Shown in pieces: positions 7,540 through 24,204 of a stretch of DNA of 64,000 nucleotides. The translations under genes were made by a program, and so were the position numbers. Within the stretch, counting starts at the first letter, position 1. The number at the start of each line of letters is the position of its first letter. This DNA is from an uncultured Clostridia bacterium (GTDB taxonomy: Bacteria > Bacillota > Clostridia > Monoglobales > Monoglobaceae). Below the pieces are notes generated by a model. It made no database searches. It saw only the letters and a list, made by a program, of their open reading frames with translations, and was not told where the DNA came from. The DNA lies in assembly GCA_947589045.1 (NCBI GenBank), contig CANQBQ010000010.1:1-64000 (forward strand), in the 5' to 3' direction.

Positions 7540-7962
7540 TCACATAAATTGTCTTGAAATATCGGAATAGTCCTTATAGTCCTTGTATTCCTTTTTTTCT
7601 TTATGCTCTTTTGAGTATACATACTCGTCTTCCGGATCGGTGCAGCTGCATATACAGCCGTCGCCGTCTGCGGCTCCCTCTGTCTTGCCGCATTTAACAT
7701 AGGTTTCGCCCACGGATATGTCGGCTCCGAAGGTTATCGGGATGTCTATCTTCATTTTCTGAGATACCGTGAACTCACAGCAGCCGTTCAAAGTGCCGCC
7801 GCAGTCGTCATCGCCCATTTTGATAATCGGGCAGCCGCAACATTCCATAGAAACCTTGCCGGGGTTGGCAAAGGGCTTTATTTTTACGGGGACGCACGCC
7901 GTTGTCTCGTGACTTGCGTTTACGGGGCAAGCCGCAACGTCCATAGATTGTTTTTTATCCAT
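7540..7962 (-). CDS. Cysteine-rich conserved hypothetical protein (140 aa)
   Basis: I do not recognise a named family. The protein has no signal peptide. It carries more than ten cysteines in clusters: ACPVNASHETTAC at the N-terminus, ECCGCP near residue 43, CCEF near 62, then CGK and the CICSC cluster near 105. The tail is lysine/tyrosine-rich (EHKEKKEYKDYKDYSD). A central segment, KIDIPITFGADISVGETYVKC, looks like a beta-hairpin. The pattern suggests metal binding or a disulfide-rich structural, possibly spore-associated, protein; this is inference. AAAGGAGTGA precedes the ATG. It is a monocistronic unit ending at a strong bidirectional terminator. Confidence 0.7.
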   Translation of the reverse strand: MDKKQSMDVAACPVNASHETTACVPVKIKPFANPGKVSMECCGCPIIKMGDDDCGGTLNGCCEFTVSQKMKIDIPITFGADISVGETYVKCGKTEGAADGDGCICSCTDPEDEYVYSKEHKEKKEYKDYKDYSDISRQFM

Positions 7963-8742: not shown

Positions 8743-8855
8743 AATTGTGTAATCGGCTCGGTGAAAAGATGTAATAAATTTTCTCCAAAGGCAATAATTA
8801 ACCGAAAACTGTCTATAATACTTTAGAGAGAATATTGGACGGGAGGGGAGTACCT

Positions 8856-9785
8856 TTGGCTGAAAATAACGTCAAAAGCGCAGTAGCGGAGTCCGAGGAG
8901 CCCCTGCCCGTGCTTTATATGGATTTGATGCCCAAGCCGCACTTTCACCTGTCTCCCGACAGGGCGCACATAGGCTGCCGGAGCGCGGTATGCGTATTCG
9001 ACGGCGAGTATCACATATTCTTTTTTTCGCGCTATGATCACTCGGATACAGAGCATTTCTCAACCGTGGATTTTGTTAGCTATACCCGTCATATGGACCG
9101 CAAAGAAAAAAATCCGTTTGACGGAGGATACGCCGAAATGATAGCGGAGGCGGTAAATGCCGCCGCCGATAAAGGTCGGTTTGACTTCGAACGTGATTTT
9201 GAATTTCCGTGCGTTAACAAGGCTGAGGACGGCAGATATATTTTGACCGCGCTTGCCGCAAGCTCCGATAACGCCGAGGGCGATTGTAATATGACCGCGC
9301 CGCGTGAGATAATATGCACGGGCGGAAAAATAATTCAGTCCCCGATTAAAGAGCTTGAAATACTGCGGCGGAGCCACGAGCGGTTTTTCGTTGACAAAGA
9401 CGCAAAGATATGCGGGTATGAGGTATTTGAAGCGTATATAAAGCTGTCCGAGCCGGCGGTCGTGTGCGCGGTGGATATTTTCGGGTGCGCGGAGCTAAGA
9501 TATTGCAAAGACGTATTTTCGGTTTCTTGCTCGTGCGACGGGGCGGGAAATGTCCGTCCGAGGAGCAAAATTACTCTAAAAGAGCTTTACGCTGTGCGTA
9601 TTTTATGGGATGTATCTTCGCTTGAAGTTTTCCTCAACGACGGCGAGGCGGTGTTCACGTCAAAGATTTATCCGAAAAGCGTTGACGGAGTGATAAATTT
9701 TTTTAATATGACGGCGTGGGTGGATATATGGAAAATGGGCGGCATTGAAGTGAATAACGAAAGCGCAAAAGAGGGCGGTCTGTAA
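8856..9785 (+). CDS. Degenerate GH32-like protein (levanase/invertase fold, catalytic residues missing)
   Basis: The 309-aa product has clear landmarks of glycoside hydrolase family 32. They are KPHFHLSPDR near residue 26, FDGEYHIFFF near 48, a FDF..DFEFPCV..DGRYILTAL segment and NMTAPREIICTGGKI followed by IKELE near 146-165. A C-terminal beta-sandwich contains SLEVFLNDGEAVFTSKIYP. In active enzymes the first landmark runs into W-MNDPNG with the nucleophile Asp; here that stretch reads RAHIGCRSAVCV. The central blades with the RDP and EC motifs are absent, and total length is about 309 versus roughly 480-500. It is probably non-catalytic, perhaps a sugar-binding or structural remnant. TTG 8856 follows GGGAGGGG by 6 bp; the upstream TTG 8835 has no such site. 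Confidence 0.7.
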   Translation: MAENNVKSAVAESEEPLPVLYMDLMPKPHFHLSPDRAHIGCRSAVCVFDGEYHIFFFSRYDHSDTEHFSTVDFVSYTRHMDRKEKNPFDGGYAEMIAEAVNAAADKGRFDFERDFEFPCVNKAEDGRYILTALAASSDNAEGDCNMTAPREIICTGGKIIQSPIKELEILRRSHERFFVDKDAKICGYEVFEAYIKLSEPAVVCAVDIFGCAELRYCKDVFSVSCSCDGAGNVRPRSKITLKELYAVRILWDVSSLEVFLNDGEAVFTSKIYPKSVDGVINFFNMTAWVDIWKMGGIEVNNESAKEGGL

Positions 9786-9871: not shown

Positions 9872-10780
9872 ATGGAAAAAAGACGCGCCAAAAGAAAAGG
9901 GCACGGATGCGCGCTTATAACAGTCATATTCATTTTGATTGTTGCGGCGGTCGTCGCGCTGTGCGTGCATATAGGCGGAAGCGGTACGGAGCTCACGAAT
10001 AATACGCCCGTGAGCGCAGGCGCGAACGAGATGGTTGTAACCGAGCTTGCACTTGGCGACGGTGACTGCACCGTTGTTATGACCGATAGCGGTACGGTTA
10101 TGATAGACTCGGGCGAATATGAGGATGCCGACGACATAATCTCGTTTTTGACCGCAAGCGGTGTAAACTCGATAGACTATTTTATACTTACAAACTTTGA
10201 CGAGAGCCGAATAGGCGGCGCGTCAAATGTGATAAACAGGTTTGATGTAAAGCGGGTGATAGTCCCCGAGGTACTGCCGCTCGAAACCGACGATGATGAG
10301 TATATGAGGCTTATATCGGCGTTGGACGGCAACGACATAACGCCCTATGTAGCCGTTGAAAATCTCGGTTTCACGCTTTCGGATGCGAGCTTTACCGTTT
10401 ATTCGGGAACCAAGGACGCTTATTCATCAGACCAATCCGAGAATATGTCGCTCGTGGTAAGCGCGGCGCACGGGAACAACAAATTCCTGTTTGCAAGCGA
10501 CATAAAAGAGGAGCGCATAAGCGATATTATGTCGCGGGAGAGCGAATTTGGACATAATTATTTGAAAGTGCCGTGTCACGGCGAATTTGAAAAAAACAGC
10601 GACGAGTTTTTCTCGCTCGTAAATCCGACCTACGCGGTAATTTCAAACGGCAGCGCGGGAAAGGCGAAAAAAGCCGCCTCCGTGCTCAAAAACAACGGGG
10701 CGCAGGTGTTTGTCACGAAAAGGCATAATGTTTGCGCGGTTTCAAATCTCAATGAAAATGAAATAAAAGTTTATCAGTAA
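9872..10780 (+). CDS. Membrane-anchored ComEC-type metallo-beta-lactamase-fold protein with lost metal ligands
   Basis: The 302-aa protein has a basic N-terminus and one transmembrane segment (about residues 14-33). A domain follows that aligns by eye with the C-terminal hydrolase domain of ComEC: VTELALGDGDCTVV, MIDSGEYEDADD (near 78), IDYFILTNFDESRIGGA (near 101-117), FLFASDIKEE (near 205), YLKVPCHGE (near 228) and a final VFVTKRHNVCAVSN. In active members the third block is THPHADHIGG and the fifth is VPHHG. Here the HxHxDH ligands read NFDESR and one His is Cys. The domain faces outward by topology. Hydrolytic activity looks unlikely, so a binding or regulatory role is inferred. The gene ends 18 bp before lepA. 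Confidence 0.75.
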   Translation: MEKRRAKRKGHGCALITVIFILIVAAVVALCVHIGGSGTELTNNTPVSAGANEMVVTELALGDGDCTVVMTDSGTVMIDSGEYEDADDIISFLTASGVNSIDYFILTNFDESRIGGASNVINRFDVKRVIVPEVLPLETDDDEYMRLISALDGNDITPYVAVENLGFTLSDASFTVYSGTKDAYSSDQSENMSLVVSAAHGNNKFLFASDIKEERISDIMSRESEFGHNYLKVPCHGEFEKNSDEFFSLVNPTYAVISNGSAGKAKKAASVLKNNGAQVFVTKRHNVCAVSNLNENEIKVYQ

Positions 10781-17544: not shown

Positions 17545-18699
17545 ATGGCGGAAAAAAGAGATTATTACGAAGTGCTTGGTGTGCCGAAAACGGCTTCTGC
17601 CGACGAAATAAAAAAGGCGTACCGCAAGCTGGCAAAAGAGTACCACCCCGACCGCAACCCCGGCGACAAAACCGCCGAGGATAAGTTTAAAGAGGCGGGA
17701 GAGGCTTACGAGGTACTCGGTAACGAAGAAAAGCGCGCCAAATACGACCAATTCGGTCACGCGGCATTCGACGGTGCGGCAGGTGCCGGCGGCGCGGGAT
17801 ACGGTGCGGGCGGCTTTGATTTCGGCGGCTTCGGCGATATTTTCAGTGATATTTTCAGCGGCGGCTTCGGAGGCGGCTTTGGCGGTCAAAGACGTAACCC
17901 GACCGCTCCTCAAAGAGGCAACGACATTGAGCAGAGCATAGAACTCACGTTTGAACAGGCGTGCTTCGGCACCGAAATGGAGGTTAACATAAACCATACG
18001 GAAACCTGTGAGCATTGTCACGGAAGCTGTGCCGAGCCGGGGTCGGGCGAGCGCATAAAGTGTTCAGCCTGCGGAGGAACCGGTCAGGTAAGGCGTGTGC
18101 AGAAAACTCCGTTCGGCAGTTTTGCCAACGTCACCACCTGTTCGGCTTGCGGCGGCAGCGGAACTGTGATTAAAAATCCGTGTAAGGTCTGCGGAGGAAA
18201 GGGAAGCGTGCATAAGGCGCGCAAGAAAAAGATACGAGTCCCCGCGGGAATAAATCACGGTCAGCAGATTTCGGTTCGCGGCGAGGGCGACGCGGGCAGA
18301 AACGGAGGTCCGAGCGGCGACCTTTTGCTCACGGTTTATGTGAAAAAGCACAAGATTTTCGAGCGTCAGGGCTATGACATATACTGCGATTTCCCGATTA
18401 CGTTTGTTGAGGCGGCGTTGGGAGCGGAGGTTGAAGTTCCGACTATCGACGGCAAAGTTAAATATAACATAAGCGAGGGAACTCAGTCCGGCACAAAGTT
18501 CAGACTGCGCGGAAAAGGAGTTCCGAAAATCAATTCAAGTCAGCGCGGCGACCAGTATGTTACGGTCGTTGTCGAGATACCGAAGAACTTGAACGACAAG
18601 CAAAAAGACCTTTTGAAGCAGTTTGCCGATACGGTTGACGGCTCTAAGTATAAGCAGAGAAAAACTTTTTTTGATAAGATGAAGGACGCTTTTAAATAA
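17545..18699 (+). CDS. dnaJ: Chaperone protein DnaJ (Hsp40)
   Basis: This co-chaperone stimulates DnaK ATPase. The 384-aa type I DnaJ has a J domain with HPD at residues 34-36. A Gly/Phe-rich linker follows (about 75-115). The zinc domain has four CxxCxGxG-type repeats: [24 protein letters not shown] and CKVCGGKG. The C-terminal peptide-binding domain contains [20 protein letters not shown]. The first zinc repeat ends in Cys where Gly is usual; the four ligand pairs themselves are intact. It follows dnaK by 109 bp with a hairpin between them. Confidence 0.98.
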
Positions 18700-18719
18700 A
18701 GGCGTTTGAGGTGAAGCGT

Positions 18720-19685
18720 ATGGAATGGATAAAAGTCAGCGTAAAGACGTCCACCGAGGGCATTGAGCCGTTGTGCGGTCGGCTGTATAATATAGGCGTG
18801 ACGGGCGTTGAAATTGAGGATAAGGACGATTTTTCCGAGTTCCTCCAAAATAATCACGAATATTGGGATTATGTGGATGAGGGGCTTGAACACCTGAAAA
18901 CCGCAGAAACCACCGTGCGCTTTTATGTGAGCGACAATGCGGCAGGGCACGAAATGCTGGGCGCCGCCCGCTCCGAGGTAAGAGCACTTAAAGAGCTTGA
19001 CGCGGACGACAGCTTCGGCAGGCTTGAGATATTCATTGAAAACGTAAGGGACGAGGACTGGGCGGACAACTGGAAAAAGTACTTTCACCCTCTTGAAGTG
19101 GGCGAAAAGATACTTATTCAGCCCGAGTGGGAGCCTATAACCCATAAGACGGACAGGACGGTTTTTACCGTAAATCCGGGAATGAATTTCGGTACGGGCA
19201 GTCATCAGACCACCCGTATGTGCATTGAAAGCCTTGAAAAGTATGTTTCGGACGGCTGCAGTGTTTTGGATTTGGGCTGCGGAAGCGGTATTCTTTCAAT
19301 AATTGCGCTTTTGCTCGGTGCGAAAGAAGCCGTGGCTGTTGACATAGACCCCAACGCGATTGACTCAGCGTATTCAAATCTTGCGCTCAACCATTTGCCG
19401 CGAGACAGATATGAGGTGATTGCGGGCGATATAATTTCGGACTCCGCGCTCAGAAAAAGGCTTTCGGAGAACAAGTACGATATAGTTCTTGCAAACATTG
19501 TGGCTGACGTTATTATCGCGCTTTCGCCGTATGTTAAAGACTTTATGAAGCCCGAAGGGGTGTTTATTTGCTCGGGAATAATAACCGAGCGCATTGATGA
19601 GGTAAAAGCCGCGCTCTCGGCTGCGGGGCTTACAATTCTGAATGTGGAAACGCAAGACGATTGGGCGGCGATTGTGGCAAGATGA
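18720..19685 (+). CDS. prmA: Ribosomal protein L11 methyltransferase
   Basis: PrmA trimethylates ribosomal protein L11 with S-adenosylmethionine. The 321-aa protein has an N-terminal alpha/beta substrate-recognition domain. A class I methyltransferase core follows: NPGMNFGTGSHQTT, the SAM loop VLDLGCGSGILSI (near residue 180) and DIVLANIVADVII. It ends ETQDDWAAIVAR. ATG 18720 is preferred over GTG 18711, because the latter is part of the GAGGTG ribosome binding site. It is the usual follower of dnaJ in Clostridia and Bacilli and overlaps rsmE by 4 bp (ATGA). Confidence 0.96.
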   Translation: MEWIKVSVKTSTEGIEPLCGRLYNIGVTGVEIEDKDDFSEFLQNNHEYWDYVDEGLEHLKTAETTVRFYVSDNAAGHEMLGAARSEVRALKELDADDSFGRLEIFIENVRDEDWADNWKKYFHPLEVGEKILIQPEWEPITHKTDRTVFTVNPGMNFGTGSHQTTRMCIESLEKYVSDGCSVLDLGCGSGILSIIALLLGAKEAVAVDIDPNAIDSAYSNLALNHLPRDRYEVIAGDIISDSALRKRLSENKYDIVLANIVADVIIALSPYVKDFMKPEGVFICSGIITERIDEVKAALSAAGLTILNVETQDDWAAIVAR

Positions 19686-20428
19686 GAAGATTTTTTACCG
19701 AACCCGAAAACATAAAAGAAAATTTGGCGTATATTTACGACGACGCATCCCATATAAGCAAGGTCTTGCGCCTCGGAGAGGGCGAAGATATTATTGTTTT
19801 TGATGGAAGCGGGTACGAGTATCTCGCCCGTCTCAAAACTATCGGGAAGAATGAGTGTGTTGCCGAAATATACGAAAAAAAGGAGTCAAAATCCGAGCCT
19901 AAAGTGAAGGTTACGCTGTTTCAGGGAGTGCCGAAATCGGGCAAAATGGAGCAGATTATTCAAAAATGCACCGAGCTTGGCATATACCGCATAGTTCCCG
20001 TTATGACCGAACGCTGTGTCGTAAAATTCAGCGACAAAAAGAGCGCCGAGTCAAAGATTGCCCGCTGGCAAAAGGTGGCTGTCGAAGCGGCGAAACAGAG
20101 CGGCAGAGGTATTATACCTCAGGTGTCTCTGCCTATGAAGTTCTCGGAGGCGGCGGAGTTTCTTGCACAATACGACCTCGCGGTTATGCCCTATGAGCTT
20201 TTGGGGCACGAGGGCGGCGCGGGGCTTCGCGAGGCTGTAAAAGGGGTTGGCGGCTGTAAGACCGTCGGAATTATGGTAGGACCCGAGGGTGGTTTTTCCG
20301 GAAGCGAAGCGGATTTGGCGAAGTCGCTCGGTATTCGGCTTTGCGGGCTTGGCAGACGCATTTTGAGAACCGAAACGGTAGGTGCGGCTCTCACCGCGAT
20401 TTTGATGTATGAAAATAATGAAATGTAG
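19682..20428 (+). CDS. rsmE: 16S rRNA (uracil-1498-N3)-methyltransferase
   Basis: RsmE methylates U1498 of 16S rRNA in the 30S subunit. The 248-aa protein starts MRRFFTEPENI with the family's PUA-like domain. It has the SPOUT trefoil-knot signatures GVPKSGKMEQIIQKCTELG, MVGPEGGFSGSEADL and LGRRILRTETVGAALTAIL. The start is the ATG at 19682 overlapping the prmA stop (ATGA); a GTG at 19661 in the same frame has no ribosome binding site. It closes the heat-shock operon. Confidence 0.96.
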   Translation: MRRFFTEPENIKENLAYIYDDASHISKVLRLGEGEDIIVFDGSGYEYLARLKTIGKNECVAEIYEKKESKSEPKVKVTLFQGVPKSGKMEQIIQKCTELGIYRIVPVMTERCVVKFSDKKSAESKIARWQKVAVEAAKQSGRGIIPQVSLPMKFSEAAEFLAQYDLAVMPYELLGHEGGAGLREAVKGVGGCKTVGIMVGPEGGFSGSEADLAKSLGIRLCGLGRRILRTETVGAALTAILMYENNEM

Positions 20429-22431: not shown

Positions 22432-23334
22432 ATGGAAAAGGAAACACTCAGAAAAGAGCTTTGGGGTCTGCTCGGAGATCTGCCCGAAAGAGGTAAGGTC
22501 AGTTCAAGACTTATTAAAACCGAGGAAAACGAGCGCTTTGTCACCGAACGGCTGATGCTTGAGCTGAACGGCATTGAAAGCGTACCCGCAATATTCGTAA
22601 AACCGCACGGCGACGGTAAATTTCCCGTTGTGCTGTTTTTTCACGCGCACGGCGGCGCATATTCGGTGGGAAAGAGTGAGCTTTTGCGCCGCGCCGATTG
22701 GAACGAAAACGAGCCTTACGGTGAGTTCCTGACCAAAATGGGTTATGCGGCTTTATGTATTGATATGTGGGGCTTCGGCGAGCGTCGGGGACTCTCGGAA
22801 AAAGAAATATACAAGCAGATGGCATTTTACGGTCAGGTTATGTGGGGTATGATGTGCTTTGACGCAGTTCGTGCAATCGACTACCTTGAAACGCGCGGCG
22901 ACGTATGCCTTGACAATCTGACTACTATCGGGTCGTCGATGGGCGGATTTATGTCACAGTGGGCGGCGGCTCTCGACGAGAGAATAAAGCGTTGCGTATG
23001 TATTGCCGCACTTGCGGATTTTGACGAGCTTATAGCTAAAAATCAGATTGGCAGACACGGCATTTATCTGACTATACCTTCGTTTTTAAAGAACTTTTCA
23101 ACACCGAAAATGCTTTCGCTTATCGCACCGCGCAAGCTGTTGCTTTTAACGGGAAAGTACGATACTCTGTCTCCGGTCTCCGCGTTTGAAAGAGTGCGCC
23201 GCGAGGTAGAGGCGGAATATTTAAGGTGCGGTGCGCCCGAAAATTTTGAGCTTAAGGTTTTCGGAAGCGGACATTACGAGTCCGCTCAGATGAGAAGTGA
23301 GGTAAAGAAATTGTTGGAGGAGGACGTGATTTAA
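22432..23334 (+). CDS. Alpha/beta hydrolase, acyl-esterase type
   Basis: The 300-aa protein has an alpha/beta-hydrolase core. It has an oxyanion-hole region FFHAHGGAYSVGKSE, a nucleophile elbow TIGSSMGGFMSQWAA (Ser near residue 166) and an acid-containing GKYDTLSPV segment. The catalytic His lies in GSGHYESAQM near the C-terminus. The MWGFGERRG segment and overall layout match carbohydrate acetyl-esterase and dienelactone-hydrolase-like families. There is no signal peptide. Placed after the GH140-type enzyme, it probably removes acyl groups from a plant-derived oligosaccharide. It has its own promoter, and its stop codon abuts the next start. Confidence 0.8.
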   Translation: MEKETLRKELWGLLGDLPERGKVSSRLIKTEENERFVTERLMLELNGIESVPAIFVKPHGDGKFPVVLFFHAHGGAYSVGKSELLRRADWNENEPYGEFLTKMGYAALCIDMWGFGERRGLSEKEIYKQMAFYGQVMWGMMCFDAVRAIDYLETRGDVCLDNLTTIGSSMGGFMSQWAAALDERIKRCVCIAALADFDELIAKNQIGRHGIYLTIPSFLKNFSTPKMLSLIAPRKLLLLTGKYDTLSPVSAFERVRREVEAEYLRCGAPENFELKVFGSGHYESAQMRSEVKKLLEEDVI

Positions 23335-24204
23335 ATGGCATTTAATTTTTTTCCGAGCTACAATAAGGCAGGAAAAGGCGTTGACAAAAATGAGCCGAAA
23401 AAGAGAGGCTTTTTTGCATTTTTCGAGCTTATGGGACGCAAATTCTGGAAGATGATAACTCTGAATTTGCTGTATGTATTGTTTTGCCTGCCTTTTTTGG
23501 CGGTAGTATTTGTTGCGGCGGGCTTTATTTCGTCCTCTGTTGTAAATATGTGGGGACTTTCGGGCGGGGCAGAGAATGCTGCCGCCGCCGCTCTTATCGA
23601 CCTGTATATACGCTTTATAATTTCGTTTATGTTTATGATGTTTTGGGGAATGGGACCCGCGACCGCGGGCTTTTCCTATATTTTGCGCAACTACGCCCGC
23701 GAGGAGCACGCGTGGCTGTGGAGCGATTTTTGGCAAAATTTTAAGTCAAACTTCGTTCAGGGAATTGTCGTGTGGATAATAGATGTAGTTATGATGGTGG
23801 TTTTATACACCGCATTTATGTACTACGGAAATATGCCCGCTCCGATGTCTGTTTTAAGGTATCTGGTGTTCCTTTTGATAATCGCTTACACGTTTATCCA
23901 TTTTTATATTTATCAAATGATGGTTACGTTTAAGATGACGCTTCGCGAGCTTTATAAGAATTCACTGATTTTTGCGGTGGGCAATTTCCCTTGCAGTCTG
24001 CGTATTTTTGTGATACTGCTTGTGACATTTGCGGCACTATTGACGGTAGCCGCGCTGCCCGGACCCGCTTTGTTTGCGGTGATGGCAATACTCGTGTGCA
24101 TAGCGTACAGCTTTTGGGGCTTTGTCGTCAACTTTAATGTTGAGCATAAGCTCCACGAATATACGTTAATGTCGGACGCGGAACTGAAAAAAGAGGAAAA
24201 GTGA
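23335..24204 (+). CDS. YesL-family (DUF624) membrane protein
   Basis: The 289-aa polytopic protein starts AFNFFPSYNKAGKGVDKNEP and RGFFAFFELMGRKFWKMITL, which matches the DUF624/YesL pattern. About six hydrophobic segments follow. YesL-type genes are found in many Bacillota sugar-utilisation clusters, often with ABC transporters for plant-wall oligosaccharides; their biochemical role is not established. The ATG follows the esterase stop codon with no gap, so translation is coupled. No transporter genes are adjacent here, so a supporting role for an unlinked uptake system is inferred. Confidence 0.8.
   Translation: MAFNFFPSYNKAGKGVDKNEPKKRGFFAFFELMGRKFWKMITLNLLYVLFCLPFLAVVFVAAGFISSSVVNMWGLSGGAENAAAAALIDLYIRFIISFMFMMFWGMGPATAGFSYILRNYAREEHAWLWSDFWQNFKSNFVQGIVVWIIDVVMMVVLYTAFMYYGNMPAPMSVLRYLVFLLIIAYTFIHFYIYQMMVTFKMTLRELYKNSLIFAVGNFPCSLRIFVILLVTFAALLTVAALPGPALFAVMAILVCIAYSFWGFVVNFNVEHKLHEYTLMSDAELKKEEK

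Follow-up and report, generated by a model that had tools for sequence, protein, structure and literature searches.

A constrained GH32-derived gene without catalytic motifs or middle propeller blades, probably a retained pseudoenzyme, in an uncultured Clostridia bacterium

The window analysed here is a stretch of 64,000 nucleotides (assembly GCA_947589045.1, contig CANQBQ010000010.1, positions 1 to 64,000) from an uncultured Clostridia bacterium of the family Monoglobaceae. At 8856-9785 of its forward strand lies a gene for a protein of 309 amino acids (aa), which is related to glycoside hydrolase family 32 (GH32), has lost the catalytic residues of that family and is probably kept as a non-enzyme. 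The gene starts with TTG at 8856, and the reading is open already from an in-frame TTG at 8835, which gives a longer reading of 316 aa. The frame is uninterrupted over 8856-9785, as a first-pass annotation of this DNA had stated. The features of the gene, all on the forward strand, are listed below; omega is the dN/dS ratio between the protein's gene and the only orthologue found.

8770-8830, forward: conserved upstream block, probable promoter, with a -10-like TATAAT at 8814-8819
8841-8850, forward: Shine-Dalgarno-like GGGAGGGGAG, 5 nucleotides 5' of the TTG start, seen in the sequence
8856-9785, forward: GH32-derived, probably non-catalytic protein, 309 aa; frame intact, with Pfam, scrB_fam and hhalign matches
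8937-9092, forward: blade I remnant, aa 28-79, from the alignment; GCRSA at aa 40-44 in place of NDPNG; omega 0.15
9093-9173, forward: short linker, aa 80-106, in place of blades II-IV and their RDP and EC motifs
9174-9395, forward: blade V, aa 107-180, with DFERDFEFPCVN ... MTAPREI ... IKELEILRR; found by hhalign
9396-9782, forward: C-terminal beta-sandwich (Glyco_hydro_32C), aa 181-309; Pfam 2.2e-9; omega 0.12; strands in the second structure model

The kinship with GH32 that the first-pass annotation had claimed is borne out by hidden Markov model (HMM) searches. The Pfam model Glyco_hydro_32C (PF08244) matches aa 231-285 at 2.2e-9, with 37.9 bits against a cut-off of 21.9, and matches the orthologue at 1e-8. 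TIGR01322 (scrB_fam) matches aa 117-281 of the 316-aa reading at 1.3e-14, with 53.8 bits, which is far under its cut-off of 356 bits, and hhalign against 11 intact GH32 proteins gives 5e-18 over aa 104-301. Glyco_hydro_32N (PF00251), the model of the five-bladed propeller, has no match over its cut-off in the 309-aa protein, in which only blades I and V of the propeller align. The blade I region (first 106 aa) of both orthologues scores 10.7-11.0 bits on a custom GH32 HMM, the best of 200 shuffles scoring 3.9, and solved GH32 structures also align there; this match is weaker than that of blade V and the sandwich, yet above chance. A tree of GH32, in which the protein sits on a long branch with weak deep support, does not place it within the family.

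Blades are numbered according to established knowledge of the GH32 fold. The numbering is also taken in part from a published description of that fold (PMC6560043). Compared with intact GH32 proteins (L004, from the same bacterial family, and others), there is a gap of about 170 residues, which corresponds to blades II-IV and takes the RDP and EC motifs along. The nucleophile motif NDPNG in blade I aligns ungapped with GCRSA, and with CCQSE in the orthologue, so that Cys41 occupies the position of the Asp nucleophile in both proteins, while the blade V motif FYAPQ is replaced by FEFPC. The features of an active GH32 enzyme, namely the Asp nucleophile, the RDP transition-state stabiliser, the EC acid/base and the five-bladed propeller, are all missing. 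The alignment and the orthologue agree here with the first-pass annotation, which had noted the loss of MNDPNG, RDP and EC and of the central propeller blades. Of the near-invariant residues of the family, those of the active site are replaced or deleted, and all those in the sandwich (G231, I249, D252, E257, N261, G263 and V266) are retained. Blades V and I adjoin in the five-bladed ring because the fold is circular, and they may pack as a pair in the 309-aa protein.

The sole orthologue found is in a metagenome-assembled genome (MAG) of a rabbit-gut Clostridia bacterium of the same genus (contig CANRNL010000005.1, locus L001, 6010-6933); genome G001, also of this genus, bears the same locus. 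The gene order around the orthologue is the same as in the window and the two proteins are 80% identical. The deletion and the motif losses are common to both species and are therefore older than their split. An assembly error was rejected, as two separate MAGs agree. Searches of viral contigs, plasmids and the genomes of the family (38) and of the class (391) brought up no further comparable short form, the other hits being longer GH32 proteins or fragments, and one contig scan returned just the known orthologue; the GH32-derived pseudoenzyme is read as confined to one genus of gut Clostridia.

Between the two orthologues dN is 0.112 and dS 0.444, which gives an omega of 0.25 (bootstrap 0.17-0.35). 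The constraint is moderate overall and is focused in blade I and the sandwich, blade V having an omega of 0.37. Neutral simulations with the same number of changes introduced a mean of 3.3 stops, left 3.5% of the runs stop-free and never gave an omega below 0.33 in 150 runs. Where a residue agrees with the GH32 consensus, identity between the orthologues is 97%, vs 74% at the other aligned positions (p 3e-6), a pattern that points to a scaffold retained without catalysis. Upstream of the gene, the block at 8770-8830 differs from L001 at 4 of 61 positions, vs 24% of the third codon positions of the gene, and the counterpart of the ribosome site in L001, GGGAGGGAG, is almost identical to GGGAGGGGAG. 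No good -35 match was found in this block, which would probably act as the promoter. The first-pass annotation's suggestion that the gene is not in decay and that its non-catalytic product is retained gains support from the intact frame of the orthologue, the omega of 0.25 and the same missing motifs. The low dN/dS that it had proposed to look for among orthologues was found, with the qualification that there is one orthologue in the 38 family genomes and that omega is above that of most neighbours.

Homology to GH32, a shared loss and a constrained frame point to a pseudoenzyme that was probably retained after its derivation from a GH32 enzyme of the ScrB/beta-fructosidase type; its loss of activity, fold and binding role we infer. 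Blades II-IV were lost from a GH32 ancestor before the two species split, so that blade I, its ring neighbour blade V and the C-terminal sandwich are left. Nothing remains of the active site: Cys stands for the nucleophile Asp, RDP and EC are deleted and FYAPQ is replaced. Family knowledge would rule out catalysis by the GH32 mechanism because the catalytic residues are missing, and hydrolysis of fructosides by this mechanism is not expected. The sandwich would be the working part, steadied by the two blades, and perhaps still recognises a sugar or a protein partner. In GH32 enzymes the sandwich is fructan-binding in some cases and apparently just stabilising in others (PMC6560043). Since the roles of sandwiches vary, no active GH32 partner was found and the catalytic residues are missing, the function favoured, tentatively, is that of a small cytoplasmic protein, built around the sandwich, that binds a ligand or serves as a scaffold.

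Structure prediction, which the first-pass annotation had proposed, was made with AlphaFold2 and gave models too poor to decide the question. With the two orthologues as input the mean predicted local distance difference test score (pLDDT) was 29, and with pieces of one viral-contig GH32 added it was 41, the sandwich being mostly at 55-73. The best Foldseek match of the model with pLDDT 41, which had a GH32 row in its alignment, is the GH32 structure 7vco (E 4e-6, template modelling score 0.33). Owing to that row, the Foldseek matches to GH32 and to galectin-like sandwiches are not independent.

Several points weigh against a retained pseudoenzyme or in favour of its main rival, a slowly decaying pseudogene in which an in-frame internal deletion killed the enzyme and the frame is merely unbroken so far. 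The omega of the gene is the highest of ten genes compared, the neighbours ranging from 0.03 (purA, lepA) up to 0.25 in the nitroreductase gene next door, which it equals. The N-terminal tail of 27 aa is unconstrained (omega 1.5), and the gene is cysteine-rich, with 3.6% and 5.2% in the orthologues vs 0.6-2.4% in intact GH32 proteins; L001 has six additional cysteines, which are compatible with relaxed constraint. The short GH32-like gene is found in one genus only, and the same genome carries elsewhere a truly truncated scrB. Moreover, the selection analysis rests on two sequences only, both structure models are of low confidence and too poor for geometry, and no neighbouring gene hints at a ligand. 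When the domains of BT1760, a GH32 enzyme, were separated, they had a tendency to aggregate and did not bind levan (PMC6560043), and therefore a cut-down GH32 protein need not fold or bind sugar. A decaying gene is nevertheless unlikely, as the upper bound of omega is 0.35, there is no stop or frameshift despite a dS of 0.44, the constraint falls on structural GH32 residues and the upstream block is conserved.

Other alternatives give the protein a more specific role. Removal of the middle blades could have made a new functional fold of two blades plus sandwich, with a cysteine cluster in place of the active site that binds a metal, a sugar or a partner, which is improbable. Another reading is a repurposed active or metal site, in which Cys41, in the place of the nucleophile, Cys46, and Cys119, in that of the Gln of FYAPQ, would form a thiol or metal site. 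These three residues lie on adjacent blades, and the orthologues share ten conserved cysteines, of which two occupy positions of former active-site motifs; the gain of cysteines is also compatible with relaxed constraint, however, the remaining catalytic residues are all lost and the geometry of such a site would depend on poor models, which makes it very improbable. Regulation of an active GH32 enzyme has a plant precedent in the defective invertase Nin88 of tobacco, a GH32 protein without invertase activity that is kept and has a role (PMC3713406). The likeness is that of a retained GH32 protein without invertase activity, although for the 309-aa protein this loss is read from the sequence. 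In contrast to Nin88, the 309-aa protein is without the catalytic triad and three blades, and the genome yielded no active partner for it: a GH32N domain was not found in the source genome (94% complete) nor in the sister genome (81% complete), and the sole other GH32 trace in the source genome is the end of a truncated scrB. Because no such enzyme was found in either genome, a regulatory role is hardly credible.

Among known systems, the retained pseudoenzyme is closest to the GH32 sucrose-6-phosphate hydrolases and beta-fructosidases (ScrB; L004, PDB 7vco and 1uyp), of which the blade I framework, blade V and the sandwich are recognisable. L004 has 33% identity with the 309-aa protein over the shared part. 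Intact ScrB relatives are mostly of 430-500 aa, in contrast to 309 aa here without blades II-IV, NDPNG, RDP and EC. L006 (G014:C20, about 22464-23822, reverse strand) and L007 (G115:C93) are GH32-like proteins of related genomes, likewise with changed RDP and EC (WECP) motifs, but they are full length (509 and 516 aa), keep the Asp of the first motif (ADPNG, HDANG) and are on a separate branch of the tree. They may be another GH32 group of low activity or altered specificity. L006 and L007 cluster together in the tree.

The truncated scrB of the source genome is cut to its last ~70 codons (L042 4500-5697, reverse strand; contig 9, about 18500-19700) and is of a different GH32 type from the 309-aa protein. 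It directly precedes an intact fructokinase gene and adjoins a gene of 1123 aa with ResIII helicase and T5orf172 domains, by which it was apparently cut. In G006 and G029 both members of the scrB-fructokinase pair are intact. The contig-9 fructokinase shares 95% identity with the one of G006, which belongs to another genus and whose lepA is just 83% identical; the operon has therefore probably arrived by recent horizontal transfer, unless the contig does not belong to the bin.

The lepA-hemW pair is conserved across the family. Of the two genes that precede lepA here, the GH32-like gene and a metallo-beta-lactamase gene, neither was seen in any of 28 other lepA loci within the 1.5 kb read upstream. 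The metallo-beta-lactamase-fold protein (window 9872-10780, forward strand; Pfam 5.1e-7) has an N-terminal hydrophobic segment, and its gene immediately precedes lepA in this genus and is not at that position in related genera.

On the other side, at 7540-7962 of the reverse strand, a conserved protein of 140 aa has 8.6% cysteine (9.3% in the orthologue). Its gene sits between an NlpC/P60-like gene and the nitroreductase gene, and the protein is possibly metal-binding or spore-related.

Pseudoenzymes usually retain the whole fold and lose few residues. Here a propeller enzyme is without three internal blades and without any of its three catalytic residues, yet in two species selection still protects what is left, which is probably a functional non-enzyme and not the product of a gene in decay. 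A search of open-access papers turned up no bacterial GH32 pseudoenzyme, which is weak evidence of novelty. A name transferred by similarity, sucrose-6-phosphate hydrolase, would falsely credit the organism with the use of sucrose, and the 309-aa protein would offer a natural case in which to ask if part of a beta-propeller can still be stable and of use.
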